DNA of 64,000 nucleotides from Cytobacillus sp. NCCP-133 (lineage in GTDB: Bacteria; Bacillota; Bacilli; Bacillales; Cytobacillaceae), in contig NZ_BRVM01000001.1 in NCBI RefSeq assembly GCF_026011715.1, positions 653,021-717,020 of the forward strand, read 5' to 3'. The notes below the pieces were generated by a model. The model ran no database searches and was not told the origin of the DNA. It was given only the letters and a program-made list of their open reading frames with translations. Shown here piece by piece: positions 2,866 through 63,390 of the stretch (position 1 is its first letter; each line of letters opens with the position of its first letter). The translations under genes and the position numbers were made by a program.

Positions 2866-3283
2866 AAAAGCGCAGGGCGCCCTGACCACCCCCGACAAGC
2901 ACAAGACGAGCCTCACGGAAAGGCTTTCTTTGCCTTTTTGGGAGGATTGCTCGAAATGTGAAGGTGACTTGCCCATTCAAGGAACGCAGACTAAAAACGC
3001 CACGTCCTGTGGCAACGTCTGCATGACCCGCATCCTCCCATAAGCTGCCGCTTTCGGTCGTGCGATGTTTATCCTCAAAAAAGCTAACGCTTTTTTCTTC
3101 GTGCCAAAAGATTTGCTGACGAAGCCTTCCTTGTCCTGCGGACCTCAGGCATAAGACGGTTCCTGTAAGAAGGTGTTTTCCCTTCTGGAAGGAATTGGCT
3201 TATGACCCCGAGTGCTCTAGGAGCCGCAACTAGACAAACTTGCGACCTCGAGTGGGTAGGCTGCTTGCGCTAGACAGTTATCG
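2866..3283 (+). repeat. Modular hairpin repeat, copy B (longest, about 418 bp)
   Basis: This is the fullest member of the intergenic family. Modules in order are: the left end AAAAGCGCAGGGCGCC; a hairpin flanked by GACAAGCACAAGACGAGCCTC-like sequence with a GGAAAGGC/GCCTTT core; a nested hairpin GCAGAC..GCCAC-GTCCT-GTGGC..GTCTGC (2986-3022); an AGCTAACGCTTTTTT hairpin; a hairpin CATAAGACGG..AGAAGG/CCTTCT..GGCTTAT (about 3150-3205); and the right end GGGTAGGCTGCTTGCGCTAGACAGTTATCG. It fills the convergent gap between msrC and the methionine gamma-lyase and starts six bases after the msrC stop. No convincing reading frame was found in it. Confidence 0.85.
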
Positions 3284-3305
3284 ATGGTCAAAAAACTTTA
3301 ATAGA

Positions 3306-3343
3306 AAAGGAGATGTCTCTTAACAGGACATCTCCTTTTTATT
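3306..3343. terminator. Bidirectional intrinsic terminator
   Basis: AAAAGGAGATGTC and GACATCTCCTTTTT form a 12-13 bp stem followed by T-runs in both directions. It ends the methionine gamma-lyase gene on the minus strand and would stop transcription coming from msrC through the repeat. Confidence 0.85.
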
Positions 3344-3347
3344 TTTA

Positions 3348-4535
3348 TTAAATCTTTTCCAGGGCCTGAAATAGGTCATCACGGATATCTTCCCAAGATT
3401 CAAGCCCGACAGAAAGCCTCAGCAGTGTATCATCAATCCCCATCTGTTCTCGTGATTCCTGAGGAACCACTGCATGGGTCATTGTTGCCGGGTGCTGGAT
3501 CAGCGTCTCAGCATCTCCAAGGCTAACTGCAATTTTGATGATTTTCAGCTCATTCATAAATGCCTGGGCGGTTCCTTTATCTCCCTTTAAGGTAAACGAA
3601 ATCATTCCGCCTGCTTTTCTCATTTGTTTCTTAGCAATCTCATAATCGGGATTATTGCTGTCTCCCGGGTAATAGATCTTTTCGACTTTTGGGTGCTCCA
3701 ATAAACAAGCCGCCAGCTTTTCGGCATTCTCGCAATGGCGGTCAAGCCTTACAGCAAGTGTTTTTAGTCCGCGCAGAAGAAGCCACGCATCAAATGGAGA
3801 AATAATGCCTCCGATATCTTTTTGGGTAGTCATTGAAACTTTATCCAAAAATTCTTTCGGACCTACAACAATTCCAGCCACAACATCCCCATGTCCGCTT
3901 ATATATTTTGTTGCACTGTGAACGACAATGTCACAGCCTGCATCAATTGGATTCTGCAAATAAGGGGAGCAGAATGTATTATCAACTACTACAGGGATCC
4001 CTTTCTCTCGACCTACTTCTGCTACCATCTGCAAGTCTGCCAATTTCATTGTTGGATTTATCGGAGTTTCAACATAAATGCAGGCTGTCTCAGGCTTTAT
4101 TTGATCCAGCAGCTGTTCTTTCGTCTCCATAGCTGAAAAATCATGGCTAATTTTATATTTCTCATCCATCATCTCCAGCAAACCAAATGTGCAGCCATAC
4201 ACACCCTGAGAACATAAAATATGATCGCCTGTTTTGGTAAGCGCGATTAGTACAGCAGATACCGCTGCCATTCCTGACCCAAAGGCTAGGGCGGACTCTC
4301 CCTTTTCAAGGGCCGCCATCCGTTCTTCCAGAATTTTTACAGTTGGATTGCCAAGACGCGAATAAATATATCCTTCCTCTTCACCCGCAAAGCGCTTCTC
4401 CCCTTGCTGTGAAGTTTCAAATGTAAAAGTGGATGTTTGAAAAATGGGCGGAGCCAGGCTTCCTTTAAATCTCTCTGAATCATAACCTTCATGAATGACC
4501 TGTGTCTCCATTTTCAATTGTTGCTTCCTTTTCAT
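3348..4535 (-). CDS. megL: Methionine gamma-lyase (PLP-dependent Cys/Met metabolism enzyme)
   Basis: It cleaves L-methionine to methanethiol, 2-oxobutyrate and ammonia. The 395-residue protein is a fold-type I PLP enzyme: phosphate-binding YSRLGNPT (58-65) and FGSGMAA (85-91), PLP-ring Asp in VVVDNTF (182-188), and Schiff-base lysine K210 in HSATKYISGH. The segment GVYGCTFGLL (111-120) carries the cysteine (C115) that marks methionine gamma-lyases rather than cystathionine enzymes. I start at 4535, where AAAGGGAG precedes the ATG, because the 11 upstream codons have no ribosome site. No SAM riboswitch is visible upstream. Cystathionine gamma-lyase or synthase activity remains possible. Confidence 0.82.
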   Translation of the reverse strand: MKRKQQLKMETQVIHEGYDSERFKGSLAPPIFQTSTFTFETSQQGEKRFAGEEEGYIYSRLGNPTVKILEERMAALEKGESALAFGSGMAAVSAVLIALTKTGDHILCSQGVYGCTFGLLEMMDEKYKISHDFSAMETKEQLLDQIKPETACIYVETPINPTMKLADLQMVAEVGREKGIPVVVDNTFCSPYLQNPIDAGCDIVVHSATKYISGHGDVVAGIVVGPKEFLDKVSMTTQKDIGGIISPFDAWLLLRGLKTLAVRLDRHCENAEKLAACLLEHPKVEKIYYPGDSNNPDYEIAKKQMRKAGGMISFTLKGDKGTAQAFMNELKIIKIAVSLGDAETLIQHPATMTHAVVPQESREQMGIDDTLLRLSVGLESWEDIRDDLFQALEKI

Positions 4536-4642
4536 ACAAACTCTCCCTTTCGGTGTAACCGTTTTCATTTTTCTGTAATAAAATTTCCTCTTTTTTCAGC
4601 ATATGATAAACGTCTATTTTTTGAAAGTATTTTGTTCAAAGA

Positions 4643-4876
4643 AAAGCGCAAGGTGCCTTGACCATGAAGGAACGCAGATTAAAAGCGCCACGCCCGTGGC
4701 AATGTCTGCATGATCCCGAGTCCCTAGGAGCCGCAACTTGGCAAACCGAAATGTGGAAGCGACTGTCTAGGGACGACAGGCAAAAGACGGTTCCTCTAAG
4801 AAGGTATATTTCCTTCTGGAAGGAATCGGCTTATGACCTCGAGGGGGTAGGCGCCGGGAGCTAAAAAGTTACCGAC
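4643..4876 (+). repeat. Modular hairpin repeat, copy C (about 234 bp)
   Basis: It has the left end AAAAGCGCAAGGTGCCTTGACC. This leads directly into the GAACGCAGATTAAAAGCGCCAC hairpin module, skipping the GACAAGCAC module found in copy B. The GAGTCCCTAGGAGCCGCAACT segment follows, then the AAGACGG..AGAAGG/CCTTCT..GGCTTATGACC hairpin and the right end GAGGGGGTAGGCGCCGGGAGCT. It lies between the start of the methionine gamma-lyase and the 3' end of the diguanylate cyclase. A short open frame in it is an artefact of the repeat. Confidence 0.82.
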
Positions 4877-4904
4877 GTTCAAAATTTTTATACTTTCATA
4901 TTTT

Positions 4905-4936
4905 AAAAATAAAGAACTGCCTTTCAAAAAGGCAGT
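4905..4936 (-). terminator. Intrinsic terminator of the GGDEF gene
   Basis: On the minus strand ACTGCC(TTTTTGAAA)GGCAGT is followed by TCTTTATTTTT, four bases after the diguanylate cyclase stop codon. Confidence 0.75.
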
Positions 4937-4939
4937 ATC

Positions 4940-6826
4940 CTAAATAAAGAAATTTTCACCTGACTCAAGGACAACTTTATTTTTGCCTGACTGCTTTGCA
5001 GAATATAACGCTCTGTCGGCCCTCTTGAATAAAGCCGGATAAGTGTCCTTCCGCCCTCTGTTCCAATAGGATACCCCGCAGGAAATAGTCACCTGAGGAT
5101 TAGAGCATTCAAACACCCTATTCACAAGCCTTTCAGCAATCACCTTTCCTCCTGCCAGCGACACGCCGGGAAGATAAACAGCCAGTTCTTCACCGCCCCA
5201 CCTTGCTCCTATATCAGTGGCGCGAATATTTCCATTTATGACATCAGCGACCTGAATAATTACCTCATCGCCTACCTGATGCCCGTATGTGTCATTAATC
5301 GTTTTAAAGTCATCAATATCTATCAGAATAAAAGAGCCTTCAATATCTTCATTCATTGATAAATGGATCCGCTCGTCCAAATAACTCCTCGAGTAAAGCT
5401 TCGTTAAATGATCGGTGACAACCATCTTCTCCAGTTCTTCCCTCAGCATTGAGTTAGTAAAAGCCAAAGTTGAATGGTGAATCAATGATTGGAGAAGTTT
5501 AAAAGTTTCAAAAGAAAAATGGTAAGGAGACCGATGCATAACCAGCGCAAAACCTTTCAATTCTCCAGACTGAGTCATTGGTACAGCCATTATGGACTTA
5601 AAGCGGAAAACCTTTTTCTGGTTTTGCAGGCTGAAATCCCCAATAAACAAAGATTCTCGTTCCTTCATGATTTTCTTCTGTATATAGCGAATATAAAGAG
5701 ATGCATCCTTCGTGTGAAAGAAATCAGTACTTCCGTTCATTATATTGGTATGTAAGCCATCAGCAGACAATAGGATAAAACCAGCTTCCTCCGCATCAAA
5801 TGATTGCAAGATTTGCTCAGACATAAACATCATCATTTCTGTCAGGCGCAAATTGGAATTCAGACGGTGGGATGTTTCATTAATTAATTGCAGATCAGCA
5901 ATCAATCGCTTCGATTGCTGATACAGTTGGGCATTTTCCAATGCGCTCCCCGCCGTGCGGGCAAGCAGCGTGATAAATTCCACTTCATTTTTTGGGAACA
6001 TTAAGGTATTAGGTGCAATCACCTGCAGCACTCCATAAACCCCCTGCTTTCCTTTTAATGGGGCATAGAGAACCGAGCGCTTTTCTAGGACAGAATCTTC
6101 GAATTGGACAGCACCTGTCACATATGCCTGCATGGCTGCGATATTTTCGCTGTCATACTCCAGATCCCTAATCGGTAAATCTCCATGGTTTTTATTATCC
6201 TGTGATAAAAGAAGGTAATAAGTGAAAGTAGGATATACTTCCTGCAAGGTATAAATAATCTCGCCAAGTACCATGTCCATATCCATTGAAGAGTGAAACT
6301 TTTCAGTCACACGGTATAGTTGCTTATAGCGTTTTTCTTCCGACACAATCTTTGCCAGCCCCTGGGCTTTTTCTAAAAATTGCCCGCACTCTCCGCTAAG
6401 CTCCTGTAAAATCTTTTCCGGCAGGGTGTTAAAGGAATCCATACCCCCTATAAGAAACATACAGCCAAGCAATTGTTCCCCCTTGATTAGCGGAAGCATC
6501 AATTCCTCACTCTGCGTTTCTCCCGCCCTGCTTCGGATTTGCCGATTTTCCCTAATCCACCCCTTAAGTCCAGTACAGGAAATACTAGGCGGCAGCGTAC
6601 TTAATTGAAAATCGGATTTAGTCGCAGCTTCAATAAAAAACTCCTGTTTCCATTCATTGCAGCCATATAAAATGACCTCTGCTGCACCGGTCAGAGCTTT
6701 TATAGCCGAAAGCATTTCATCCAGCAGTTTTTCATAATGGAAAAATCCATTCTCTGTATCGATGATATCAAAAAAACGGCTTTTCAATTTAAAAATGATT
6801 TGGCGTTCGAGCGTATCCATCTCCAT
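4940..6826 (-). CDS. dgcP: GAF-GGDEF diguanylate cyclase (DgcP/YtrP type)
   Basis: It probably makes cyclic di-GMP from two GTP. The 628-residue protein has GAF-like sensory regions in the first about 460 residues and a C-terminal GGDEF domain. The latter carries the intact active-site loop RWGGEELAVY and the upstream FILIDIDDFKTINDTYGHQVG metal/nucleotide segment, so catalysis is expected. No transmembrane segment is obvious, suggesting a cytoplasmic sensor. A run of GTG/ATG codons (6832, 6829, 6826, 6820) makes the start uncertain. ATG 6826 leaves about five bases after AGGTG. The B. subtilis gene between msrC and rpsD encodes the active cyclase DgcP (YtrP), which supports the name. Confidence 0.85.
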   Translation of the reverse strand: MEMDTLERQIIFKLKSRFFDIIDTENGFFHYEKLLDEMLSAIKALTGAAEVILYGCNEWKQEFFIEAATKSDFQLSTLPPSISCTGLKGWIRENRQIRSRAGETQSEELMLPLIKGEQLLGCMFLIGGMDSFNTLPEKILQELSGECGQFLEKAQGLAKIVSEEKRYKQLYRVTEKFHSSMDMDMVLGEIIYTLQEVYPTFTYYLLLSQDNKNHGDLPIRDLEYDSENIAAMQAYVTGAVQFEDSVLEKRSVLYAPLKGKQGVYGVLQVIAPNTLMFPKNEVEFITLLARTAGSALENAQLYQQSKRLIADLQLINETSHRLNSNLRLTEMMMFMSEQILQSFDAEEAGFILLSADGLHTNIMNGSTDFFHTKDASLYIRYIQKKIMKERESLFIGDFSLQNQKKVFRFKSIMAVPMTQSGELKGFALVMHRSPYHFSFETFKLLQSLIHHSTLAFTNSMLREELEKMVVTDHLTKLYSRSYLDERIHLSMNEDIEGSFILIDIDDFKTINDTYGHQVGDEVIIQVADVINGNIRATDIGARWGGEELAVYLPGVSLAGGKVIAERLVNRVFECSNPQVTISCGVSYWNRGRKDTYPALFKRADRALYSAKQSGKNKVVLESGENFFI

Positions 6827-7177
6827 CATCACCTATCAACTGTTTCAGATCATGAATTTTGAAATCAATAAGATTATTATAGCGAACCAGGGTAATGTTT
6901 CCCCGTAAATTTGTGGCTATTTCGTTTCAATTCGGCATTTTCAACTATCAGTATGAATAATCTACAGCAGCGAAGCCGCTTTTCATTTCCCGTTTCATTT
7001 ATATAATTCACAACTGAATGTATTCCAATTTTTTCTTTATTATATCATATCTTACCAATGTTCTCTTAAGCATTGAATCATTTTACACTAAAATAGCTTC
7101 TAAATTATTTCTTCTATATAACTTCATTGATTTAGTAAATAAAAACTATTAGTGCCTATATTATAAGCAATAATACC

Positions 7178-7207
7178 TTGACTTTTATCCTGCAAAAATT
7201 ATATAAT
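7178..7207 (+). promoter_or_regulatory. Sigma-A promoter of rpsD
   Basis: TTGACT (7178-7183) and TATAAT (7202-7207) are separated by 18 bases, a near-consensus vegetative promoter. It implies a leader of about 275 nucleotides before rpsD. Confidence 0.85.
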
Positions 7208-7488
7208 ACTCCTTGTGTAAAATATTGCAGCCTATGTGATCACCTTGATGTACTCATTTTGTTCCTCAACCAGATTTTGAAGTTAGTTTTGTCTAGCTTC
7301 AGGCGCCATCGGCTCGACTTATGCTTGTCACCGATAAGCGGGCGCCTTACGCATTTCTGGGGATGGGGTACTGTGTAACCCTCTGCTGCTAGGGCGAAGG
7401 TACATGAAAACAAAATGGACATGATTGTTGTGCACATCTGTTACTGTTTTTATTTTACAAAATAAAAACACAAAAGGAGGAGTCTTAA
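7208..7488 (+). promoter_or_regulatory. Long rpsD 5' leader, candidate S4 autoregulatory RNA
   Basis: The transcript leader of the ribosomal protein S4 gene is about 275 nucleotides. In B. subtilis the rpsD leader folds into a structure bound by S4, which represses its own synthesis. The segment 7355-7488 (GGGGATGGGGTACTGTG, then CTAGGGCGAAGGTAC, ending with AAAGGAGGAG before the start codon) is the likely equivalent. I infer this from the gene and the leader length, not from a folded match. The leader also contains an inserted copy of the modular repeat at 7290-7354. Confidence 0.55.
7290..7354 (-). repeat. Modular hairpin repeat, copy D, inside the rpsD leader
   Basis: Read on the minus strand it is GCGTAAGGCGCCCGCTTATC, then GACAAGCATAAG with TCGAGCC, then GGCGCCTGAAGCTAGAC. 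This is a compact version with both family termini and the GACAAGCATAAG module only. The two GGCGCC ends can pair. It lies downstream of the rpsD promoter, so it is transcribed as part of the mRNA leader. Confidence 0.8.
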
Positions 7489-8091
7489 ATGGCTCGTTAT
7501 ACTGGTCCAAGCTGGAAATTATCACGTCGTCTTGGAATCTCTCTAAGCGGTACTGGTAAAGAATTAGAAAAGCGTCCTTACGCTCCTGGACAACATGGTC
7601 CAAACCAACGCAGAAAAATATCTGAATACGGATTGCAATTGCAGGAAAAGCAAAAGCTTCGTCATATGTACGGAGTAACTGAGCGCCAATTCCGTAACTT
7701 ATTTGATAAAGCTGGCAATATGCCTGGTAAGCACGGTGAAAACTTCATGATTCTTTTAGAATCACGTCTTGACAACGTTGTATACCGTTTAGGTCTTGCA
7801 CGTACTCGCCGTCAAGCTCGCCAGCTAGTTAACCATGGTCACATCATGGTTGATGGATCTCGTGTTGATATTCCATCATACCGCGTTGCTCCTGGTCAAA
7901 CAATCACACTTCGCGAAAAATCTCGCAACCTTGACATCGTTAAAGAAGCAATCGAAGTTAACAACTTCGTACCTGACTTCGTATCTTTCGATGCAGACAA
8001 GCTAGAAGGAACTTTCACTCGTATGCCTGAACGTTCTGAACTTCCAGCTGAAATCAACGAAGCTCTAATCGTTGAATTCTACTCTCGTTAA
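7489..8091 (+). CDS. rpsD: 30S ribosomal protein S4
   Basis: A primary 16S rRNA-binding protein that starts assembly of the 30S body. The 200 residues begin [20 protein letters not shown], typical of S4. An S4 RNA-binding domain follows at about 92-155, with [20 protein letters not shown] and [10 protein letters not shown]. The N-terminal zinc cysteines present in some S4 variants are absent, so this is the zinc-independent form. A strong AAAGGAGGAG precedes the ATG, and codon use is that of a highly expressed gene. It is monocistronic, with its own promoter and terminator. Confidence 0.98.
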
Positions 8092-8098
8092 TAGCTGC

Positions 8099-8140
8099 TT
8101 AAAAACTGCCGATATATGTCGGCAGTTTTTGTTTTGTTTT
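8099..8140 (+). terminator. Intrinsic terminator of rpsD
   Basis: AAAACTGCCGA and TCGGCAGTTTT form a stem with a six-base loop, followed by TTGTTTTGTTTT. Confidence 0.9.
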
Positions 8141-8426
8141 AAGGGTTTTAGTTTGAAGATTTTAGAGAGGATTTTGAGTAATTACCTTTTTTCCAGCTCT
8201 TTCCTCACTTCATTGTTAATCATCTGTATAAACTACCACTCCCCTCTCTCTGCACTCATTTTCTTCGTAAAGGCTGGATTAACTGCCATCTTCCTCCGGC
8301 TCTCATTTTTCTCGTTAACCAACAGGATCAACTTTCTGTTCAGAATCTTTAACTCATTTTTGATAAATCTCTTTACATTCCCCCAAAGTCGGAAAAAAGC
8401 CCTCATTCAGCAGGAGGGCTTTCATA
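8141..8426. other. Convergent intergenic region without a recognisable gene
   Basis: This AT- and pyrimidine-rich stretch lies between the rpsD terminator and the tyrS stop. An open frame here codes for low-complexity Phe/Leu/Ser sequence without a ribosome site and starts inside rpsD, so I do not call it. A small hairpin, AGCCCTC..GAGGGCT at 8397-8421, sits just past the tyrS stop and probably terminates tyrS. Confidence 0.5.
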
Positions 8427-9698
<1,272 letters not shown>

Positions 9699-9749
9699 CT
9701 AAATGAAACAGCAATTTTCTCAGGCATATCATAGGACAGGTCCAAGCGT

Positions 9750-10050: not shown

Positions 10051-10205
10051 TATCATAAAAATTAGCAGTATGTCAAATATCTGTGCAAAAAAGGAAATTT
10101 CAGATAAATGGCGAACCTTGTCAATTAGTATGTCGCATTATCGCAGGTTAACGGTCAGTAACTTTAGAAAATTGGTTTTCTAGTATATACTCAATGAGTT
10201 ATTTC

Positions 10206-10391
10206 CGAACTAACTGCCCGTAAAAGCCCGATTGGTGAGATATTGTGAAACTGACCTTTGCTTTTTCAAAGGTATAGTTGAACCAATCAGGCTAGTAGTG
10301 CCAGTTAGATTGAAGTGCAAATGAAAATCTTACTGGCATTAGAACGTGACCAACCAACAGCGGAAAACACGCTGTTGGAAGTTTCACTTTA
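10206..10391 (+). repeat. Second hairpin repeat family, copy 2A
   Basis: It contains TAACTGCCCGTAAAAGCCCG with ATTGGT, an imperfect inverted counterpart ACCAATCAGGC..GCCAGTTAG, a hairpin CCAACAGCG..CGCTGTTGG, and the terminal sequence GAAGTTTCACTTTA. The first block and the terminus recur in reverse orientation at 29497-29633, and the terminus again at 26622-26650. The right end lies over the promoter of the penicillin-binding protein gene. Confidence 0.75.
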
Positions 10392-10400
10392 TGCTATAAT
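10372..10400 (+). promoter_or_regulatory. Putative promoter of the PBP gene overlapping a repeat end
   Basis: TATAAT at 10395-10400 is a perfect -10. Seventeen bases upstream is CTGTTG (10372-10377), a weak -35 that belongs to the hairpin arm of repeat 2A. The mRNA would start about 20 bases before the AGGGGGAC ribosome site. Confidence 0.6.
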
Positions 10401-10427
10401 AGATGTGATTTTAGGGGGACTGATACG

Positions 10428-25133: not shown

Positions 25134-25156
25134 CTTCTTACCTCCCTTAAATAGAT

Positions 25157-25403
25157 AAGCGCAGGTGCCTCGATCACCCCTGACTAGCACAAGACGAGCC
25201 TCACAGGAAGGCGCTTTTTGCCTTTCAGTGAAGATTGCTCGAAATGTTAAGGCGACTGCATAGTGAGACAGGCGTAAGACGCTTCCCGTAAGAAGGTGTT
25301 GTTCCTTCTGAAAGGAAATGGCTTATGACCCGAGTCCCTAGGAGCCGCAACTGGGCATGCTTGTGCCCTCAAGGGGGGAGGTGCCGGAGCTAGCCAATTA
25401 TCG
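25157..25403 (+). repeat. Modular hairpin repeat, copy E (about 247 bp)
   Basis: Left end AAGCGCAGGTGCCTCGATCA, then the GACTAGCACAAGACGAGCCTC module with a GGAAGGCGC/TGCCTTTC hairpin and GATTGCTCGAAATGT. The GCAGAC hairpin of copies B, C and I is missing. Next come GGCGTAAGACGCTTCCCG, the AGAAGG/CCTTCT hairpin, GGCTTATGACC, GAGTCCCTAGGAGCCGCAACT and the right end GGAGGTGCCGGAGCTAGCCAATTATCG. It lies between ytxH and brxC, starting 24 bases upstream of the brxC start codon, opposite to the direction of those genes. Confidence 0.83.
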
Positions 25404-25485
25404 AATTTCCAAGAGAAACTGTTTAATCAAAAAAATTTACGGTGAAGTAATCGTATCACTTCACCGTTCTGAAAACAAATATGGA

Positions 25486-29272: not shown

Positions 29273-29496
29273 ATAAAGAACCTCCAACCATCGTATATCT
29301 GTAAAACAGTATATGACATATATCTAGATTTGCGCATATCCCCTAATAGGACATGCTCCACTGACTGTGCCAGCAAGATGTTCAATTGTCCTCTTTGTTG
29401 AACACACACTTTAATGTATTGAATCATTATAACATTATTTATTTATAAAAATCTATGTAACGTATTGCCAGTTGACTATTCCCTAAATAAAGTGAA

Positions 29497-29633
29497 ACTT
29501 CAATTAGCGGGGGCTTTATTCCCGCTAATTGTTAGTTGAACCAATCGGGCCTTTACGGGCAGTTGGACTCCCGCTATTCCTCCTTCAATTCCTTCTGAAG
29601 TCTTGAAGTGGGGGTCTTACTGCCCGTTAGACT
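29497..29633 (-). repeat. Second hairpin repeat family, copy 2B
   Basis: On the minus strand: TCTAACGGGCAGTAAGACCC, then CTTCAAGACTTCAGAAGGAA (hairpin), CAACTGCCCGTAAAGGCCCG with ATTGGT, a perfect AATTAGCGGG/CCCGCTAATT hairpin, and the terminus GAAGTTTCACTTT. It shares the CTGCCCGTAAA-GCCCGATTGGT block and the terminus with copy 2A. It overlaps the last codons of the unknown gene at 29617-30276. Confidence 0.78.
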
Positions 29634-30276
29634 GCGATAAAAAATATAAAACATTTGTTTTTAGAAAAGATCTCCACGTTAATTCAGGATATTTGACTTT
29701 TGCCTCGGAATAAGCTTCTAGCATTTCCTCTACAGTCAGCGGATCCTTAACAGACAGTATGGGACCTACCGCCAAGTCATAAATCTGAATCGGAATTTTT
29801 CGAATGAAAAACCATTGGCCAGGCAGCAAGTCAGGCAAATCACTTTGCCTCATACGGAATGGCCGCTGATCTTCTGCTCCTGCCACAGTAATCACTTTAT
29901 GGTCATTGCTTATGATCCTTACCGGCTCTATTGCAGATGTTAAAAACAGAGCCCCTTGGATTAAGTCAGGCTCTGAAAGCTTCCGGGAATTGTTTTTCAA
30001 AAAAAGGCTGAACATGGTTGAGCCTTGTATGGTTTTATAATCAAACAGAAGCCAATTCTGAAATACTTCCGATTGCAATGGCGTAAACAGTATTTCAGGC
30101 TGAAGGCCGAGCGCTTTTCGAAAAAGATATTTTGCCCGAACCTTCTCCCTGATATTTGCAGTCCGTTCTGTATAAACCATGGCTCCTTTATGTAACTGTA
30201 CAGCAATTTTCTCTCCCTGCAGCTGCTTAGCCTCACGGTAAGACTTAAAATCCAAAATTGAGCCGTCCATATCCAT
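29617..30276 (-). CDS. Conserved-looking protein of unknown function, C-terminus supplied by a repeat
   Basis: A 219-residue soluble-looking protein beginning MDMDGSILDFKSYREAKQLQ. I do not recognise the family. It is mixed alpha/beta, with no signal peptide, no membrane helix and no clear catalytic motif. The central part (LLFDYKTIQGSTMFSLFL, about 75-92) and FRMRQSDLPDLLPGQWFFI (about 138-156) look folded rather than random. AAGGAGC lies seven bases before the ATG. It follows nicotinate phosphoribosyltransferase by 49 bases, so the two are probably co-transcribed. The final residues, SQSNGQ, and the TAA come from the hairpin repeat 2B, so the native C-terminus was probably altered slightly. 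Confidence 0.72.
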   Translation of the reverse strand: MDMDGSILDFKSYREAKQLQGEKIAVQLHKGAMVYTERTANIREKVRAKYLFRKALGLQPEILFTPLQSEVFQNWLLFDYKTIQGSTMFSLFLKNNSRKLSEPDLIQGALFLTSAIEPVRIISNDHKVITVAGAEDQRPFRMRQSDLPDLLPGQWFFIRKIPIQIYDLAVGPILSVKDPLTVEEMLEAYSEAKVKYPELTWRSFLKTNVLYFLSQSNGQ

Positions 30277-37575: not shown

Positions 37576-37802
37576 TATTGTCCCCCTATGTATACTTTTT
37601 TCATCTATAAAGATAACACATGTCAAGACACTTGTTATACATATTTTTTCTATTCTTATTGTTGTATTCAAGAGGGTATTCTATGATACTATATTCATTT
37701 TATTTAATCTGTTAATTGGCATGTTCATCTCTGCACTCTCGCAGGACTTTGAAACACAGCCTTTTATTCATATCTCACTTGTTACAGATAAACGAACATA
37801 AG

Positions 37803-37836
37803 AAAAGCGTAATGCGCCTGAAGCTAGACAGTTATC
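37803..37836 (+). repeat. Modular hairpin repeat, copy F (minimal, 34 bp)
   Basis: AAAAGCGTAATGCGCC is joined directly to TGAAGCTAGACAGTTATC. It holds only the left and right termini of the family, with no internal module. It lies upstream of the PTS_EIIC_2 gene and downstream of the lipoprotein gene. Confidence 0.75.
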
Positions 37837-37867
37837 TAATTCAAAAGGATATAAATTCTGATATTAT

Positions 37868-37900
37868 AAAAAAACGAAGGGCAATGCCCTTCGTTCGTTT
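37868..37900 (-). terminator. Intrinsic terminator of the lipoprotein gene
   Basis: AACGAAGGGC(AAT)GCCCTTCGTT with T-runs on both strands. Confidence 0.85.
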
Positions 37901-38575: not shown

Positions 38576-39022
38576 ATGGAAATTACCGTCTATTTAGCGG
38601 GTGAAATTCACTCCAACTGGCGCGATGAATTAAAAGAAAAAGCAAAATCCCTTCAGCTGCCTGTTCATTTTACAGGTCCTATGGAAAACCACGACCGTTC
38701 CGATATGATTGGGGAAGAAATTCTGGGTAAACAGACAGATGCGATCTTCCGGGATGAGGCTGCTTCAAGCATTAATAATTTAAGGACACAGCTTCTTATG
38801 CAAAAGTCAGATCTTGTGATCGCATTATTCGGAGAAAAATATAAACAGTGGAATACCGCAATGGATGCAAGTGCGGCCCTCACACTTGGCAAGCCGCTGA
38901 TCCTTATCCGTCCAAAAGAGCTCCATCACCCATTAAAAGAACTTTCAAGCAAGGCAAATGTAACAGTTGAAACCGTTAACCAGGCATTAAAAGTGCTATC
39001 CTACATCTATGAAACTGAGTAG
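38576..39022 (+). CDS. ytoQ: YtoQ family protein
   Basis: A 148-residue cytoplasmic protein with a nucleoside deoxyribosyltransferase-like fold signature: ITVYLAGEIHSNWRDELK at the N-terminus, and SDLVIALFGEKYKQWNTAMDA and LTLGKPLILIRP in the centre. The substrate is unknown. AAAGGAGGAAAAAGGA precedes the ATG. A repeat begins one base after the stop codon, so its terminator lies beyond it at 39114. Confidence 0.88.
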   Translation: MEITVYLAGEIHSNWRDELKEKAKSLQLPVHFTGPMENHDRSDMIGEEILGKQTDAIFRDEAASSINNLRTQLLMQKSDLVIALFGEKYKQWNTAMDASAALTLGKPLILIRPKELHHPLKELSSKANVTVETVNQALKVLSYIYETE

Positions 39023-39077
39023 AAAAGTGCAAGCGGCCTGCCCATTAAGGGGGAGTCGTCCCGCTAGATAGTTATCG
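39023..39077 (+). repeat. Modular hairpin repeat, copy G (short, 55 bp)
   Basis: AAAAGTGCAAGCGGCCTGCC, a short internal segment (CATTAAGGGGGAGTCG), then the right end CCGCTAGATAGTTATCG. It is a degenerate short copy abutting the ytoQ stop. Confidence 0.6.
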
Positions 39078-39113
39078 CCGTTTAACATTATACTTCCTTA
39101 TCTTTTAAAGAAT

Positions 39114-39142
39114 GGGGCAGCCTAGCGGCTAGCCCCTTTTTC
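39114..39142 (+). terminator. Intrinsic terminator of ytoQ
   Basis: GGGGCAGCC(TAGC)GGCTAGCCCC followed by TTTTT. The stem overlaps the last codons of the convergent DUF84 gene. Confidence 0.8.
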
Positions 39143-54434: not shown

Positions 54435-54829
54435 ATTTTCTCCTCCTGACAATACTTACGGACCAGAAAGGAAAAGGTTGCCTATCTTTAAAGGTTTTTT
54501 AAGGCTTTTTCAAAGGAATTTTTTTAAGATTTATCCCGAATCCAAATTCCTCCAGAGAGGATAAGTTACCCATTGATTACCAAACAAATATATTAGACTT
54601 TTTGAATTTTCAGTACATATTACTAGCCCCCTCCACCATAAGGTATAGTAAAGCCGTTTCCCAAGAATGTTTATCCCGGCACATAAAGGGAAAATAAACA
54701 TACATTAAAAAGGAGGGAGAAGCACAGACTAGGAAGGGAAGCGTAAATATTTTGTAAATTTGTTTCCTTAAAGTAGAAATTATCAGATAATAGAGTTACA
54801 ATATAGTCAGATGTATGACATCTAGTTAG
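54435..54829. other. Intergenic region upstream of ytzE
   Basis: This is AT-rich. At 54709-54720 there is a strong ribosome-site-like AAAAAGGAGGGAG with no start codon in range, and GTTTATCCC..GGGAAAATAAAC forms an imperfect inverted repeat just before it (about 54668-54700). I see no credible gene. Promoters of ytzE and of the K+ channel operon are expected here but not identified. Confidence 0.4.
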
Positions 54830-54898
54830 AAAAAGCGTAAGGCCTTGACCATCCCTGATAACTTGAGGGGGTAGGCACTAACGCAAAACAGATGTCGA
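54830..54898 (+). repeat. Modular hairpin repeat, copy H (divergent, about 69 bp)
   Basis: It has the left end AAAAAGCGTAAGGCCTTGAC, CATCCCTGATAAC, then a GAGGGGGTAGGC right-end block that has decayed (CACTAACGCAAAACAGATGTCG). It lies about 160 bases upstream of ytzE. Confidence 0.65.
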
Positions 54899-55057
54899 TG
54901 TTCAAAGTTTTTACTTTCTTTTATTGAAAATAACCAGAATACAAAGGAGTTGTCTGGGGAAAAGAAAACTACATACCTTTGGAGGGATATCCTTCAATGT
55001 AGCTGTCGGTTGCAGGGAATTGCCATGGGGTTTGAAAAAAGGATAGGGAGTGGTTTT

Positions 55058-55340: not shown

Positions 55341-55343
55341 TCT

Positions 55344-56063: not shown

Positions 56064-56179
56064 TGTTGGACCTCCAATTAATTTCTAAATTAATGGGCAT
56101 CTATCTATTCCAACGCAGCCCGGTATTGCATAGACTACTATCATATATTCGGATGAATACGTTAGAGGAGATGGTTCGT

Positions 56180-56398: not shown

Positions 56399-56406
56399 AT
56401 TTAAGG

Positions 56407-56440
56407 AAAAAGGTCTCCATCTGCGGAGACCTTTTTTATT
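56407..56440 (+). terminator. Intrinsic terminator of the coiled-coil gene
   Basis: AAGGTCTCC(ATCTGC)GGAGACCTTTTTT. Confidence 0.88.
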
Positions 56441-58055
56441 ATGCCCTCAGCCTAAGCTTGTTCAGCATTCTATCAACTCTTGACCCAAACAGGATATAGA
56501 TTAACTTGGTTCTGAAACTTAAGTAGAAATAGATTCCCGCTCCTGCAGCTGCACAGATGGCGACAATGATCATCGCCTGCAGATCCGCTTTAGGTGATAA
56601 AAAGATCGTGGCAACCTGGTACATAACACCTGCTGCTATCATCATTAATACGGTAAAAATGATAATTAAGAGCCCTCTTCTGAACACTAAGCTGTATTTA
56701 TATCCTGAAAAATATTTAATTACAAAAAGATTAATTAAAATTGCAACCCCATATCCCAGAGCGGTGGCCAGGACAGCTCCCTTTGTCTCCATTAATTTTA
56801 TTAAAGGGATATTCAAACTTAGTTTGATCAGAATTCCAACCAATAAACTCAGAACTGTAAAACGCTGTTCGTTAATTCCCTGCAGGATTGCCGCTGTAAC
56901 TGAATATAAAGCAAACAGGATTACTACTGGAGCGTATGCCTGCAGCACTTCACTTCCCTGCAAGTCATGCTCATAAAAAAGGGTATAAATAGGCTCGGAT
57001 AAGATGGCCAATCCAACAGCAGCCGGCAAAGTTAAAAACATTAGCACTTGAAATGTCTGATTTAATTGTTTGTTCAGACTCAATTGATCATCCTCTATAA
57101 ATGCCTTTGTGATGCTTGGTACAAGTGTTAATGAAAAAGCTGTCGCCAAAGAAACGGGAATAATAACTAATTTATGGGTTTGATAATTTAAAATAGAAAG
57201 AGCATCTTCTGACAGGTTTCTTGGTATTCCGATAGAAACCATCGCTCTATTGAAGGTTAGCAAATCTACGAACTGGAAAACAGGATTGGCTATTCCCACT
57301 AAAATAAACGGGATAGAGTAAATGAGTATTTCTTTATAAATCTCTTTTAATGAAATGTTTATAGTACCTTTATCCTGGAAAAGGAGCTCATTAAGATACG
57401 GCTTCCTCTTATACCAATACCAGTATAACACAGCAAGGCTTCCCAATCCCCCAATAAATGCTGCAAAAGTAGCCACACTGACTGCTGTCACCATACTGCC
57501 CTTAAGAACATTTAAAACGATGAAAGCACCCGCAAGCAGAAACACAATTCGAACAATCTGCTCGACCACCTGGGAAACAGCAGAAGGCCCCATAGATTGA
57601 TGACCTTGGAAAAAACCGCGAATCAAACTCATAAAAGGGATGATAATTAACGCAAAACTAACAGCACGAATAACCGTTACTATTTCATCAGCTGACCCCA
57701 GCCCTTTATCAGCCCGAATCGTTTCAGCAAGTAAAGGAGCAGAAAAAAATAGGACAAGAAAGGCGATAAATCCGCTAATAAGCATAATAACGAGCCCGGA
57801 TTTAAACAGTTTTCTTCCAACTGCATACTCTTCCAGCGCATTGTATTTTGATATAAATTTAGAAACTGCAAGCGGAACGCCTGCCGTTGCAATGCTTATG
57901 AAAATGGTATAAGGCACGTATGAGTATTGGTAAAGGAGTGTTCCTTCCTTCCCAACTATAGAATAAAAAGGAATAACATAGAACAGCCCAAGAAACTTTG
58001 AAATAAAGGTTCCCAGCGTTAATATAAAAGTACCTCTTAAAAGCTTAGATGACAT
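56439..58055 (-). CDS. murJ: Lipid II flippase MurJ / YtgP (MATE-like polysaccharide exporter family)
   Basis: An integral membrane protein of 538 residues with about 14 membrane segments. It is of the MOP superfamily and, in B. subtilis (YtgP), flips lipid II across the membrane for peptidoglycan synthesis. It begins MSSKLLRGTFILTLGTFISK, with FLGLFYVIPFYSIVG in helix 1. It has the conserved SLIRGFFQGHQSMGPSAVSQ and QIVRIVFLLAG segments and a LNYQTHKLVIIPVSLATAFS region. A general polysaccharide exporter role (SpoVB-like) is the alternative. It lies downstream of no other gene in its own direction; ytfP diverges. Confidence 0.9.
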   Translation of the reverse strand: MSSKLLRGTFILTLGTFISKFLGLFYVIPFYSIVGKEGTLLYQYSYVPYTIFISIATAGVPLAVSKFISKYNALEEYAVGRKLFKSGLVIMLISGFIAFLVLFFSAPLLAETIRADKGLGSADEIVTVIRAVSFALIIIPFMSLIRGFFQGHQSMGPSAVSQVVEQIVRIVFLLAGAFIVLNVLKGSMVTAVSVATFAAFIGGLGSLAVLYWYWYKRKPYLNELLFQDKGTINISLKEIYKEILIYSIPFILVGIANPVFQFVDLLTFNRAMVSIGIPRNLSEDALSILNYQTHKLVIIPVSLATAFSLTLVPSITKAFIEDDQLSLNKQLNQTFQVLMFLTLPAAVGLAILSEPIYTLFYEHDLQGSEVLQAYAPVVILFALYSVTAAILQGINEQRFTVLSLLVGILIKLSLNIPLIKLMETKGAVLATALGYGVAILINLFVIKYFSGYKYSLVFRRGLLIIIFTVLMMIAAGVMYQVATIFLSPKADLQAMIIVAICAAAGAGIYFYLSFRTKLIYILFGSRVDRMLNKLRLRA

Positions 58056-58326
58056 ATAATCCCTTCCTTAGAAAACTGCAGCCTGCAATCTATGCAAGAA
58101 TAATATGATTAGACTGAAGCTTATAGCGACAATGATTTTAGCATAAATAAAATTAGATTTCGTCATTTTTCTATCTTTTTAGACACACTATTTGTAGTGT
58201 ACTCTTCTTGACGAAGAAATGCCACTTACAAAACCTGTATATAAAGGCTTTGTTTTTAGAAAACGAATAATTGCATTATAATAGAACTATTGCTTAAAAA
58301 GTGAATTAAGATAAGTTGGTGAAAAC

Positions 58327-59598
58327 ATGAAATATGATGTAATTGTAATTGGCGGAGGGCCGTCAGGATTAATGGCCGCCATTGGAGCAGCAGAACAGAA
58401 AGCAAAGGTGCTTTTGATCGATAAAGGGGACAAGCTTGGCAGAAAGCTTGCGATTTCCGGCGGAGGCCGATGCAATGTCACAAATAGGCTTCCTGTGGAT
58501 GAAATCATTAAGCATATCCCTGGCAATGGACGCTTTTTGTACAGCGCCTTCTCCCTCTTCAGCAATGAAGATATTATCAGGTTCTTTGAGAATCTGGGCA
58601 TACAGCTGAAAGAGGAAGACCATGGGCGGATGTTTCCTGTGACAGACAAAGCCCAATCTGTTGTGGATGCCCTGATAACCAGACTAAAAGAATTGAAGGT
58701 TGATTTAAAAACCAATAGCCCTATTCAGGATGTCCATTATAAAGATGGCAGGGTAAAGTCGGTGGAGCTTAAGTCAGGCAATTTGTATGAAGCCGATGCT
58801 GTGGTCATTGCAGTCGGAGGAAAGTCCGTACCCCACACAGGCTCAACGGGAGATGGCTATGCATGGGCGGAAAAAGCGGGTCATACCATCACAGAACTTT
58901 TTCCTACAGAAGTCCCTTTGACCTCGGCGGATAAATTTATTAAAGAAAAAACGCTGCAGGGATTATCGCTTAGAAGTGTGGAGCTTAGTGTTTTGAATCC
59001 TAAAGGAAAACCGCTTATCACCCATCGGATGGATATGATTTTTACCCATTTCGGCTTTAGCGGCCCAGCCGTATTGCGCTGCAGCCAGTACGTAGTCAAG
59101 GCAATGAAAAAGTGGAAACTAAAAGAAGTCACAATGAATCTCGATGCCATTCCCGAAACAAAGGAAGAACCTTTATTCCAGGAAGTGTCCAAAATGATTA
59201 AGAATGAACCGAAGAAAAGCATTAAGAATCTATTAAAAGGGTTACTGCCCGAAAGATACTTGCTGTTTCTTCTTTACAAAAATGGAATCGACCCTGCTGC
59301 ACAGGGAGCGAATATCTCTAATGAAAAAATCAGAAGCTTTATAAAAAGCTGCAAATCCTTTCAATTTACTGTTAACGGCACATTGCCGCTTGATAAAGCA
59401 TTTGTTACCGGCGGGGGTGTATCCGTTAAAGAAATTGAACCGCAAACGATGGCATCAAAAAAGATGGACGGCCTTTTCTTCTGCGGTGAAATCCTGGATA
59501 TACACGGCTATACAGGCGGATACAATATCACATCCGCTCTCGTAACCGGCAGGCTGGCAGGGATAAACGCAGCCGAGTCTGCACAAACAGCAAAATAA
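58327..59598 (+). CDS. ytfP: YtfP, HI0933-family NAD(P)/FAD-dependent oxidoreductase
   Basis: A 423-residue flavoprotein. The FAD dinucleotide loop is [20 protein letters not shown] (about 5-24), followed by [20 protein letters not shown] with NVTN (about 31-54), the HI0933 signature. Late blocks are [20 protein letters not shown] (about 160-180), [12 protein letters not shown] and [18 protein letters not shown]. The substrate is not known; members are often annotated as aminoacetone-like or undefined oxidoreductases. It stands alone between ytgP and cse60. Confidence 0.92.
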
Positions 59599-59601
59599 AA
59601 A

Positions 59602-59641
59602 ATATAGAGCCTGATGCCTGCCGCGGCTTCAGGCTCTATAT
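59602..59641. terminator. Bidirectional terminator between ytfP and cse60
   Basis: AGAGCCTGA(loop TGCCTGCCGCGGCT)TCAGGCTCT. Confidence 0.8.
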
Positions 59642-59811
59642 ATGACCATCGCAGAAAAACAGTAAATCTGCTCGTCTTCATCCTCTTGGACTGCTGCCAC
59701 ATTATATTTTATATCCAGCAGCTTTTTCTCTTCGATCTTCTCCAAAAAGTGGTTCATATCCTTTTCTAGATCCTTTTCGTGTTCATGATCGAATAATTTC
59801 ACCTTTATCAT
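59629..59811 (-). CDS. cse60: Sporulation protein Cse60
   Basis: A 60-residue protein, MIKVKLFDHEHEKDLEKDMN then HFLEKIEEKKLLDIKYNVAA and the ending YCFSAMVIYR. These are the residues I recall for the B. subtilis sigma-E-dependent small protein CsE60. Biochemical role is unknown. AGGAAGAG precedes the ATG. A CATAATTT on the minus strand near 59875 resembles a sigma-E -10, but the -35 is not convincing. It is next to ytwF. Confidence 0.85.
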   Translation of the reverse strand: MIKVKLFDHEHEKDLEKDMNHFLEKIEEKKLLDIKYNVAAVQEDEDEQIYCFSAMVIYRA

Positions 59812-59880
59812 AGAACTCTTCCTTTCTGGCTTTTTTTAATCAGTTTGGACAATTTTCTTAATTTTTAAAATTATGAGTAT

Positions 59881-59914
59881 TAAAAAACGAAGCCTTGTCG
59901 GCTCCGTTTTTTTT
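59881..59914 (-). terminator. Intrinsic terminator of the rhodanese gene
   Basis: On the minus strand AAAACGGAGCC(GACAA)GGCTTCGTTTTTT. Confidence 0.8.
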
Positions 59915-60218
59915 ATTCTGTCTTGCCTTGCCAGTTCAGCATGCCGCCTACCATATTGCGAACCTTATAGCCTTGTTCTTTCATATAGTTGCACACATTT
60001 CCGCTGCGGCCGCCGGAGCGGCAAATGAAAATGTATTCTTTTTCCTTATCGAAATTATCAAGATTTTCCGGAATTGTCCCCATACGGATATGTCTCGCAC
60101 CAGGAATCATGCCAGATGCAACCTCATCATCTTCCCTTACATCCACAAGCTCAAGCTTCTCTCCTGCTTCCAGCTTCTTTTGCAATTCTTCTGTTGTAAT
60201 TTCTTCAATACGGTCCAT
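59913..60218 (-). CDS. ytwF: Rhodanese-like protein YtwF
   Basis: A single rhodanese domain, 101 residues, with the active-site cysteine C66 in FICRSGGRSG and ELVDVREDDEV (about 23-33) before it. Such stand-alone domains carry persulfide sulfur; the acceptor is unknown. AAGGGTGTAAAT precedes the ATG. It sits between cse60 and leuS as in B. subtilis. Confidence 0.92.
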   Translation of the reverse strand: MDRIEEITTEELQKKLEAGEKLELVDVREDDEVASGMIPGARHIRMGTIPENLDNFDKEKEYIFICRSGGRSGNVCNYMKEQGYKVRNMVGGMLNWQGKTE

Positions 60219-60660
60219 TATTTACACCCTTTCCGAAAAACTTATAAATACAGGCATATAGCATTAATACTTGCCGCCACTTCTATAATACCTTATATGG
60301 CACACAAAATATAAATATGGAGTTTCTCTTATCTTAGGTACAAACAATTAGCTGTGTCTACTTCTTATATCTAATAAACCTTTAGCATTCCTCCTATTAA
60401 CCTGAGATAATAGGGAGCTTCCTTTATTGGTCGATCTCTCTTAACTGATAATAAGCGGGAAATGTTTCAGCCCACCCTTTTTTGATGCATTTTCTCCATC
60501 AATCCCTTCTGGATGTTGCTTCTATCCATCTCTTTGTTACCTCTTTTCCATCAGCCCCCGCAAGATGGCATCTGTATTACCCTCTCCCTATGAAAAAGAG
60601 GCACTAATCGCTCCTCCACCCTTTGGTCAGTCCACGTGTTGTTAATATTTTACAATAAAA
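60219..60660. other. Intergenic region between ytwF and leuS
   Basis: About 440 pyrimidine-rich bases on the plus strand without a convincing reading frame. Several short, related TCCATCA/ATCCATC segments are spaced over 60490-60560 and might be a decayed repeat. No promoter or RNA motif is assigned. Confidence 0.4.
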
Positions 60661-60662
60661 GA

Positions 60663-60692
60663 TAACCACCCCTATTTCATAATAGAGGTGGT
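60663..60692 (-). terminator. Intrinsic terminator of leuS
   Basis: On the minus strand AACCACCTCTATTA and TAGGGGTGGTT pair around a short loop, followed by ATCTTTTATT. Confidence 0.75.
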
Positions 60693-60704
60693 TGCTGCAA
60701 AAAT

Positions 60705-63122
60705 TTAATTCGCAACGATATTAACCAGTTTTCCTGGTACCGTAATGACTTTGCGGACTGTTTTACCGTCGATTTGTTCTTTTACTTTGTCATCACACAT
60801 GGCGATTTGCTCCAATAGATCCTTCTTGGCATCAGCCGGAACCATAAGCTTAGCTTTAACTTTGCCGTTAATTTGAATAACGATTTCCACTTCATCATCA
60901 ACCATTTTAGCTTCATCGTATGCAGGCCAAGTTTCATAGGCAATGCTTTCACCGTGGCCAAGTTTTGTCCAAAGCTCTTCAGAAATATGCGGAGCGATTG
61001 GCGAAAGCATTTTTACAAAGCCTTCGACATAGCTCTTCGGAAGGACATCTGCTTTATAGGCTTCATTGATGAATACCATCATTTGCGAAATGGCTGTATT
61101 AAAGCGCAACCCTTCGTAGTCTTCAGTTACCTTTTTAACCGTTTGATGGTAAACCTTTTCAAGACTGCCGCCTTCTTCAGTCTCCTGGATTTTCGGGCTT
61201 AGTTCGCCAGTTTCTTCAGCAAATAAGCGCCAGATGCGGTCAAGGAATCTCCTTGATCCATCCAAGCCATTTGTAGACCATGCAATGGAAGCTTCAAGCG
61301 GTCCCATGAACATTTCATATAAACGAAGTGTATCTGCCCCATGACTGGCAACAATCTCATCCGGGTTAACAACATTGCCTTTGGATTTACTCATTTTCTC
61401 ATTATTCTCACCAAGAATCATGCCCTGGTTAAATAGCTTTTGGAAAGGTTCTTTCGTGTGGACAACTCCTACATCATAAAGGACCTTATGCCAGAAGCGG
61501 GCATAGAGAAGGTGAAGAACTGCATGTTCTGCTCCGCCTATATAGATGTCAACCGGAAGCCATTCTTTTAATTTTTCAGGATCTGCAAGGGCTTCACTGT
61601 TTTTGGGATCAATATAGCGCAGATAGTACCAGCAGCTGCCTGCCCATTGCGGCATCGTATTTGTTTCTCTGCGGCCTTTTTTGCCTGTTTCAGGATCAAC
61701 AACATGAACCCAGTCATCAATGTTGGCTAAAGGTGACTCACCTGTGCCGGATGGTTTAATTTCCGTTGTTTTTGGAAGGACCAATGGCAGCTCCTCTTCC
61801 GGAACGGCAGTCATGGTACCGTCTTCCCAGTGGATAACTGGAATGGGTTCTCCCCAATAGCGCTGACGGCTGAATAGCCAGTCACGAAGGCGATACGTAA
61901 CCTTTTTCATGCCAATGCCTTTTTCTTCAAGCCATGCAATCATCTTTTCGATCGCATCTTCTTTGTTCAAACCATTAAGGAAATCGGAGTTAACATGCTC
62001 TCCGTCGCCTGTGTAGGCTTCCTTCTCAACATCTCCGCCGGCAACTACCTCCTTAATAGAAAGGCCAAATTGCTTGGCAAACTCATAGTCACGCTCGTCA
62101 TGAGCAGGTACGGCCATTATCGCACCTGTTCCATAGCTTGCAAGAACATAGTCCGCAATCCAGATTGGCATTTTTTCGCCGTTAACAGGATTAGTGGCAT
62201 ACGCACCTGTGAAAACGCCTGATTTTTCTTTAGCTAAATCAGTACGCTCTAAGTCGCTCTTGCTTTTAACTTTTTCAATATAAGCCTGAACTGCCTCACG
62301 CTGCTTATCAGTTGTAATTTTGTCAACAAGTACATGTTCTGGGGCCAAAACAGCATATGTGGCACCATATAATGTATCAGGGCGTGTTGTAAAAACAGTA
62401 AATGTGCCATCATGACCTTCGATATTGAATGTCAATTCTGCGCCTTCAGAGCGGCCAATCCAGTTCCGCTGCATATCTTTAAGGCTTTCAGGCCAATCCA
62501 GCAAATCAAGATCCTCAAGCAGGCGATCTGCATAAGCCGTGATTTTCAGCATCCATTGTCTCATTGGGCGTCGCTCTACAGGGTGTCCTCCTCGCTCACT
62601 TTTCCCGTCAATGACCTCTTCATTGGCAAGAACGGTTCCCAAAGCAGGGCACCAGTTAACCGCTACTTCATCAATATAAGCAAGCCCTTTTTCATATAGC
62701 TTTAAGAAAATCCATTGAGTCCATTTATAGTATTCAGGATCTGTTGTATTCACTTCACGCTCCCAGTCATATGAAAAGCCTAATGCCTTAATCTGGCGGC
62801 GGAACGTATTAATATTTTTCTCCGTGAATTCTGCGGGATCATTTCCTGTATCAAGTGCATATTGCTCTGCAGGCAAACCAAATGCATCCCATCCCATCGG
62901 ATGAAGAACATTATAGCCCTGCATGCGCTTCATGCGGGAAAGGATATCTGTTGCTGTGTAACCTTCCGGATGGCCAACATGAAGTCCTGCGCCCGATGGG
63001 TAAGGGAACATATCCAGCGCATAAAACTTGCGCTTGCCTTTATCTTCAGTTGTTTTGAATGTTTTATTTTCGTCCCAGTAGCTTTGCCACTTTTTTTCAA
63101 TCTCCAGGTGATTGAAGCTCAT
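60705..63122 (-). CDS. leuS: Leucyl-tRNA synthetase
   Basis: It charges tRNA-Leu. The 805-residue class Ia synthetase has the HIGH-like signature [20 protein letters not shown] (about 40-59). It has a CP1 editing domain with the threonine-rich [17 protein letters not shown] (about 245-261) that removes mischarged residues. [10 protein letters not shown] (about 577-586) and a C-terminal tRNA-binding region follow. Length matches Bacillus LeuRS. AGGAGG precedes the ATG. It lies behind a T-box, but a 246-bp repeat now separates the T-box terminator from the coding start. Confidence 0.97.
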
Positions 63123-63144
63123 TTTTGTTTCCTCCTAATATCAG

Positions 63145-63390
63145 AAAGTGCAGGGCGCCCGCTTATCCAAGGGCCGCAGACTAAAACCGCCACGTCCTGT
63201 GGCAACGTCTGCATGACCCGCATCCTCCCAAAAGCTTTCGCTTTTGGTCGTGCGAAGGTAATGCTGACGAAGCCTTCCTTGTCCTGCGGGCCTCAAGCAT
63301 AAGACGAGCCGGCGGAAAGGTTGTTCTTTAACCTTTTTGACGGATTGGCTTATACCCAAGAGCCGATGGATTACCGAGCTAGACTACTTT
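63145..63390 (+). repeat. Modular hairpin repeat, copy I, inside the leuS leader (about 246 bp)
   Basis: Left end AAAGTGCAGGGCGCCCGCTT, then the GCAGACTAAAACCGCCACGT..GTGGCAACGTCTGCATGACC module (63176-63220). The GCATCCTCCCAAAAGC hairpin, GCTGACGAAGCCTTCCTTGT, CAAGCATAAGACGAGCC..AAAGG/CCTTT..GGCTTATACC and the right end GAGCTAGACTACTTTC follow. The central block is nearly identical, base for base, to that in copy B 60 kb away. It lies between the leuS T-box terminator and the leuS ribosome site, in opposite orientation to leuS. Confidence 0.85.

Follow-up and report, generated by a model that had tools for sequence, protein, structure and literature searches.

What recurs between the genes of this stretch, and why does it lie where it does? 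The stretch is a 64-kb window of contig C1 of Cytobacillus sp. NCCP-133 (genome 4.31 Mb, 62 contigs). An earlier note, made from its letters, had listed nine intergenic copies of a hairpin element with common ends, and had compared it to a mosaic non-autonomous mobile element or to a family of structured RNAs with swappable arms. We found that the element is a mobile, non-autonomous, modular repeat family that targets intrinsic terminators. Its copies lie directly behind the T-tracts of host terminators, in fixed orientation and far above chance.

A profile of the right end was searched in 1.55 Mb of the own genome and in 600 kb each of two close relatives, G001 and G011. It gave 95 matches (78 in the own genome, 9 in G001 and 8 in G011) and none in the reversed sequence of the same set. 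The right-end 14-mer, allowing up to two mismatches, matched 186 times in the genome, and the reversed pattern 43 times. The ratios of 95 to 0 and 186 to 43 therefore show that the repeat is not a product of chance. Related sequence was confirmed at all nine places in the window (copies are called here by the start positions given in the earlier note). Both ends were recognisable at six of them (2866, 4643, 25157, 37803, 39023 and 63145), while the 7290 copy is reversed, the 54830 copy is degenerate, reading GCAAAACAGATGTC where GCTAGACAGTTATC is expected, and 388-512 is a fragment without ends. The right ends of the 25157 and 63145 copies are diverged, and the latter is outside the profile matches.

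The informative strand is opposite to the one read earlier, a point missed in that reading together with the terminator target and the presence in these genomes of two or more other families of structured repeats. On this strand the element consists of a 5' tail, a core, an arm, optional hairpins, the partner arm, a GC-rich palindrome and TTTTCTTA. The tail is about 25-30 nt long, begins with ATATCAG or similar, and exists in two types (..ATATCAGAATTTATATCC.TTTGAACTTA or ..TAAGAAAGTATAAAATTTTGAACGTC); the right border at GTTATC had been set too short, since this conserved tail continues beyond it. The core is GATAACTGTCTAGC, an example of the arm is TCCAGGCGCC, and the 3' part ends ..GGCGCCTTGCGCTTTTCTTA. 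An end-information profile of 76 rows, some of them chance matches, showed a sharp 3' end, with information falling to about zero after TTTTCTTA (on the strand of the earlier note, to near zero just past TAAG). TAAGAAA and TTTCTTA are inverted at the ends in one of the two tail types only. Minimal copies consist of the two ends alone. The size range proposed before, 34 to 418 bp, was revised to about 37 to 460 bp, and hairpin modules were indeed present or absent as entire blocks.

On the informative strand, the element starts directly after the hairpin and T-tract of an intrinsic terminator. With the GATAACTG anchor as reference, the offset peak corresponded to a T-tract start 30-39 nt before the anchor. 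A terminator at this offset was detected in 46 of 74 own copies (78 matches minus 4 unusable), 8 of 17 copies in G001 and G011, and 38 of 81 copies in named genomes, as compared with 25 of 600 control positions drawn at random behind genes of the same strand (Fisher p about 1e-33 and 3e-23). The opposite end served as the mirrored control, and there only 2 of 50 junctions faced a terminator within 15 nt. By eye, the terminator also borders the element-less allele in G001 or G011 at six of seven window sites (2866, 4643, 25157, 37803, 39023 and 63145, with 54830 as the exception). This bears on the idea that the copies are parts of ordinary or back-up terminators which arose independently. The GC-rich palindrome followed by TTTTCTTA does look, from its sequence, like an intrinsic terminator, but sequence and sharp ends are common to the copies, and the separate terminator behind which they lie exists without them. 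We regard an origin from terminator parts, which the earlier note had named as a possible refutation, as extremely improbable.

Orientation was scored with simple open reading frame (ORF) calls as genes, leaving out 5 copies in called ORFs. The informative strand was the sense strand in 47 of 53 copies between co-directional leading-strand genes, and lay on the leading strand in all four divergent regions. Gene direction and replication may both contribute to this orientation.

We then analyzed structure. In 81 copies, arms paired with their own partners gave a mean duplex energy of -22.39, compared with -18.98 (standard deviation 0.37) for swapped partners, and none of 2,000 permutations reached the observed value, with kinship among copies left uncorrected. 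By this measure the arms covary, which answers the check for compensatory changes that had been suggested. Folding of the 60 shortest of the 81 copies gave a median z of -2.75, with a range from -6.8 to 0.1.

Mobility was addressed by comparing close relatives. The alignment of G001 with G011 spans 578 kb at 94.97% identity. In 600 kb, 11 strict differences between them involve the element, of which 8 are whole elements by reading; a looser set of 16 may include rows of another repeat, family C, and the strict set was used. At six of the eight, the own genome also lacks the element, and these are therefore read as probable gains. Strict site 2, where the own genome was flagged as element-like by a loose 5' motif only, was excluded from the gains. 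Among the copies on C1, 26 were comparable (one tandem pair counted twice). A similar motif was present in G001 or G011 at four by rule, and at a fifth, 4643, by eye, where the rule had missed a divergent short copy in G011. Thus at least 21 of 26 own sites are without a recognisable copy in the relatives, in line with the empty sites that had been proposed as a check. The window sites 63145 and 4643 suggest either loss in G001 or repeated insertion. Presence and absence in close relatives, gains polarised by one outgroup, and nested modules support the mosaic mobile element.

The relatives differ by whole elements at terminator sites without evident target duplication; at the differences read, all in A/T-rich surroundings, no shared duplication was visible. 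An ordinary DDE-type miniature inverted-repeat transposable element (MITE), with its short inverted repeat and target duplication blurred by the A/T-rich site, would fit the inverted TAAGAAA of one subfamily, the many copies and the fact that no ORF was noticed. The lack of a visible shared duplication, the other tail type, which has no inverted repeat, and a limited look that found no insertion sequence with the ends of the element make a MITE unlikely.

Copies also stand in tandem (C1:185956/186026, C1:744026/744137 and joined position 259749 of G001). Inside the element, AGGAC hairpin loops carry at least one further hairpin module in some cases and not in others, as a whole block. The 63145 copy has such a nested block, a 59-bp hairpin beside a TCCT loop, which its G011 ortholog lacks. 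A pattern search for blocks of this kind after AGGAC or a similar motif gave 14 places, and the host arms pair over at least 6 bp beside the loop in 11 of them. The hosts of the 14 blocks, assigned by eye, include the main element family and a second repeat, family B.

One internal module is the Bacillaceae-1 RNA (RF01690) of Weinberg et al. 2010 (PMC2864571), which Rfam describes as a 67-nt RNA and which here is one optional block of a larger element; many copies lack it. Membership was assigned by a covariance-model score above 35 bits. There were 3 matches in the window, all above this score, and 60 in the genome, 58 of them over the cut-off. Of the 30 best loci in the own genome, 24 lie no more than 520 bp from an element end, as do 29 of 300 random windows; another 3 have family B ends, and the last 3 have neither. 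A separate locus in another genome of the genus, G028:C4:356465-360587, holds 14 Bacillaceae-1 matches in a tandem array with a 312-bp period.

The module raises the possibility that the element is a functional structured RNA (a leader or 3' untranslated region (3'UTR) RNA, a Bacillaceae-1 small RNA, or a CsrA sponge) selected behind terminators and not mobile. In its favor are the Rfam family, the covariation of the arms and a CsrA match on the Bacillaceae-1 reverse strand proposed in PMC4333381. The copy ahead of leuS, a gene identified by the Pfam leucyl-tRNA synthetase editing domain, points the same way: between the own genome and G011 it is identical at 198 of 212 aligned bases, much like the T-box (93%) and above the leuS stretch (87%). 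Most sites, however, are not common to relatives, ends-only copies carry no module, and 2 of 36 genomes of the genus lack an RF01690 match. We consider a purely functional, immobile RNA very unlikely. Of the structured-RNA part of the earlier proposal, only the structure is supported, by covarying arms and one module known to Rfam.

The copies and modules in the window are collected in Table 1. The copy or remnant in the rpsD leader lies in a stretch that is otherwise about 95% conserved, with lengths that vary between species, and comparison of the leader with Rfam gave one sub-threshold, chance-like match only. The border of the 39020 copy (39020-39022) supplies an in-frame TAG that ends 157 open plus-strand codons.

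Table 1. Copies of the element and their modules in the window (all ends approximate)
Feature	Position	Strand	Remarks
Fragment with module remnants, ends not recognisable	388..512	+	
Full copy, several modules	2862..3304	-	Sense 5' end abuts terminator ~3305-3337; element absent from G001 (gap 42) and G011 (gap 57)
Bacillaceae-1 (RF01690) module in 2862 copy	2975..3048	+ (strand as in Rfam)	65.8 bits
Full copy, several modules	4638..4903	-	Beside terminator ~4905-4937; shorter, different copy at site in G011, none in G001
Bacillaceae-1 module in 4638 copy	4663..4729	+	38.9 bits
Copy in conserved rpsD leader (ribosomal protein S4, Pfam match)	7270..7360	+	Shortened remnants in G001 and G011
Copy with diverged ends	25152..25432	-	Terminator ~25438-25466; no element at site in G001 and G011
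Minimal copy, ends only	37799..37866	-	Terminator ~37868-37897; no element in G001 and G011 (left flank poorly aligned)
Short copy	39020..39109	-	Terminator ~39112-39137; site empty in G001 and G011
Degenerate copy	54827..54922	-	Empty site in both G001 and G011; no adjacent terminator recognised
Copy between T-box (63443-63667) and leuS start codon	63140..63418	-	Orthologous in G011, absent in G001
Bacillaceae-1 module in 63140 copy	63165..63226	+	55.5 bits
59-bp nested hairpin module beside TCCT (AGGA) loop	63223..63281	-	Missing from G011 ortholog

The transposase or reverse transcriptase with matching ends that had been suggested did not emerge from a limited search. Among 180 five-prime ends, a 3' end follows within 700 nt for 95 and farther away for 45, and 40 have none. 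From the 85 unpaired 5' ends we took the six with the nearest 3' ends (0.8-2.8 kb; two more lie at 4-5 kb) and judged open frames by their first 70 residues (the G011 interval by eye only). In this limited look at six intervals, Pfam found no transposase among seven ORFs between matching ends; they matched RNase J, a metallo-hydrolase, a methyltransferase, a response regulator and a histidine kinase, and two had no match. Of the three IS200/IS605 matches in the own genome, the two read (one of them partly) were decayed, and no common ends were noticed.

Could the element be a retroelement moved in trans by the reverse transcriptase of a group IIC intron, as short interspersed nuclear elements use long interspersed nuclear elements? 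Group IIC introns have the 5' consensus GTGYG. They are ribozymes with that consensus and an encoded reverse transcriptase, and the element has neither: its 5' ends are not GTGYG, and in the window, its copies included, no Rfam intron family reached the gathering score. The target is nevertheless the same, in that group IIC introns insert directly behind intrinsic, rho-independent terminators (Robart et al. 2007, as reported in PMC8919778). The own genome also has a group II intron (C1:362997 and C1:363516-364523, L091) with a terminator on one side and an element on the other. GTGCG stands at the T-tract, and the Rfam-matched 3' part of the intron ends about where the element tail begins. This co-location is a shared site, not evidence of a shared enzyme.

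The distribution of candidate enzymes in the genus bears on the same idea. A group II reverse transcriptase match is present in 26 of 36 genomes. Ten of the 36 lack RVT_1, and every one of them has the core of the element; nine of these ten are also without a group II reverse transcriptase match (G002 has fragments). These nine core carriers (G028 by a single match) include G001, a one-contig assembly, and G011; both lack any detectable group II reverse transcriptase, RVT_1 or Y1_Tnp, and yet differ by recent insertions. Conversely, G027 has 29 group II reverse transcriptase matches and no core. Y1_Tnp (PF01797) occurs in 23 of 36 genomes; of the 13 without it, 11 have the core. IS110 was found in 33 of 36 with no pattern relative to the element, which speaks neither for nor against it. 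Across the 36 genomes, none of the four families (group II reverse transcriptase, RVT_1, Y1_Tnp and IS110) tracks the element. Genomes now without an enzyme may have lost it in the past or recently. On balance, we consider movement by a group IIC reverse transcriptase quite unlikely.

The best explanation, to which we give a probability of about 70%, is that these are small non-autonomous mobile elements, inserted in trans behind terminator T-tracts, with the 3' end of the element and its target alike. The element 3' end and the target, each a hairpin with a T-tract, would be equivalent attachment sites. A trans-acting recombinase or transposase would join the T-tract of a terminator to the element in circular or single-stranded form, and head-to-tail tandems would form when a new copy lands behind the T-tract of an old one. 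Such a shared attachment site would explain the fixed orientation, the absence of duplication and the head-to-tail tandems, and many copies would be allowed because the insertion site is harmless to the host. It is possible but doubtful that the family is, beyond this, a distinct class of mobile element, with its terminator-like end and host terminators as one kind of attachment site, a mover other than a recognised reverse transcriptase or Y1 transposase, and smaller hairpin elements that insert into the loops of larger ones.

Several results weigh against the element as a terminator-targeting mobile repeat. No mobiliser was found. Copies with no terminator detected at the peak offset number 28 of 74 in the own genome, 9 of 17 in G001 and G011, and 43 of 81 in the named genomes; in the element-less alleles of the whole-element differences a terminator was detected in four of eight, one being the end of another copy, and at strict sites 1 and 8 none could be made out by eye either. 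The orientation bias drops to 17 of 26 in convergent regions and vanishes between lagging-strand genes (3 of 6). The polarity of the gains depends on a single outgroup. RNAalifold on an imperfect alignment of 29 copies gave 7 pairs at only -0.67 kcal/mol, although 5 of the 7 show changes on both sides, and a minimal copy folded no better than its shuffles (z 0.62). A distant blastn search of plasmids and phages, with the 2866 copy as sole query, gave no match.

The family extends well beyond this genome. A 16-mer of the core, allowing up to one mismatch, is present in 33 of 36 genomes of the genus (control pattern 0). In the order the core was found in 118 of 397 genomes and 52 of 135 genera, where single matches may be chance because 14 genomes show one or two control matches too. 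The highest count among the 397, 161 core matches, is in G219, a 4-Mb genome from another family of the order. Among the 80 of 109 stretches listed for an exact longer pattern, titles name Cytobacillus, Neobacillus, Siminovitchia, Anaerobacillus and Halalkalibacter, as well as a few others, such as Pseudomonas sp. ISL-84 and Chryseobacterium sp. ISL-80, whose names are possibly wrong. No earlier description of the element was found in the open-access literature, where six element strings, sought in 5.39 million open papers, turned up in only 2, both with unrelated titles.

Small mobile repeats are already known as a kind; what is new here is the combination of the terminator target, the nesting in loops and the missing enzyme. 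MITEs, REP/REPIN sequences with RAYT and IS200/IS605-derived elements are small, palindromic, non-autonomous and present in many copies, and the element shares these traits. It differs from them in that the limited look described found no partner transposase with its ends, and in that Y1_Tnp is missing from the 11 carriers. The bcr1 repeats are intergenic and structured, with traits of mobile elements; by description only, the element resembles them as an intergenic structured repeat of a Bacillus group with mobile traits. They are mentioned for the Bacillus cereus group in PMC2267715. The BOX element of Streptococcus pneumoniae is similar in its constant ends, variable internal modules, structure and non-autonomy (PMC3049150, PMC10969869), and BOX, RUP and SPRITE insert into one another according to the same sources. 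In architecture, the only level compared, BOX differs by varying through tandem boxB modules (PMC3049150). A fixed site behind terminators is not mentioned for BOX in the available text of PMC3049150 and PMC10969869.

The two other structured repeats were seen alongside the element. Family B (CGCAGTCTAACGGGCAG ... GATTGAAGTTTCACTTTAT) occurs in the window at 10142-10392 (+), diverged, and 29487-29636 (-); elsewhere it has TTTAT on both flanks, is polymorphic between G001 and G011, and has a terminator T-tract directly ahead in 12 of 40 copies. Family C (CTTTCCGCGGGG ... CTGAGTTGATTGGAGCGGAA) lies at L170:1010-1290 and at breakpoints between G001 and G011; it is polymorphic and sometimes adjoins terminators (5 of 42 at one offset).

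A terminator-targeting element that is active where no reverse transcriptase can be detected makes terminator targeting comparable between unrelated elements, and the empty sites with their defined target make a search for the enzyme possible. The orphan Rfam RNA Bacillaceae-1, of uncertain strand and function, gains a context, being mostly a module of a mobile repeat in the own genome. In many genera of the order, these repeats complicate the annotation of 3'UTRs, T-boxes and ribosomal leaders.

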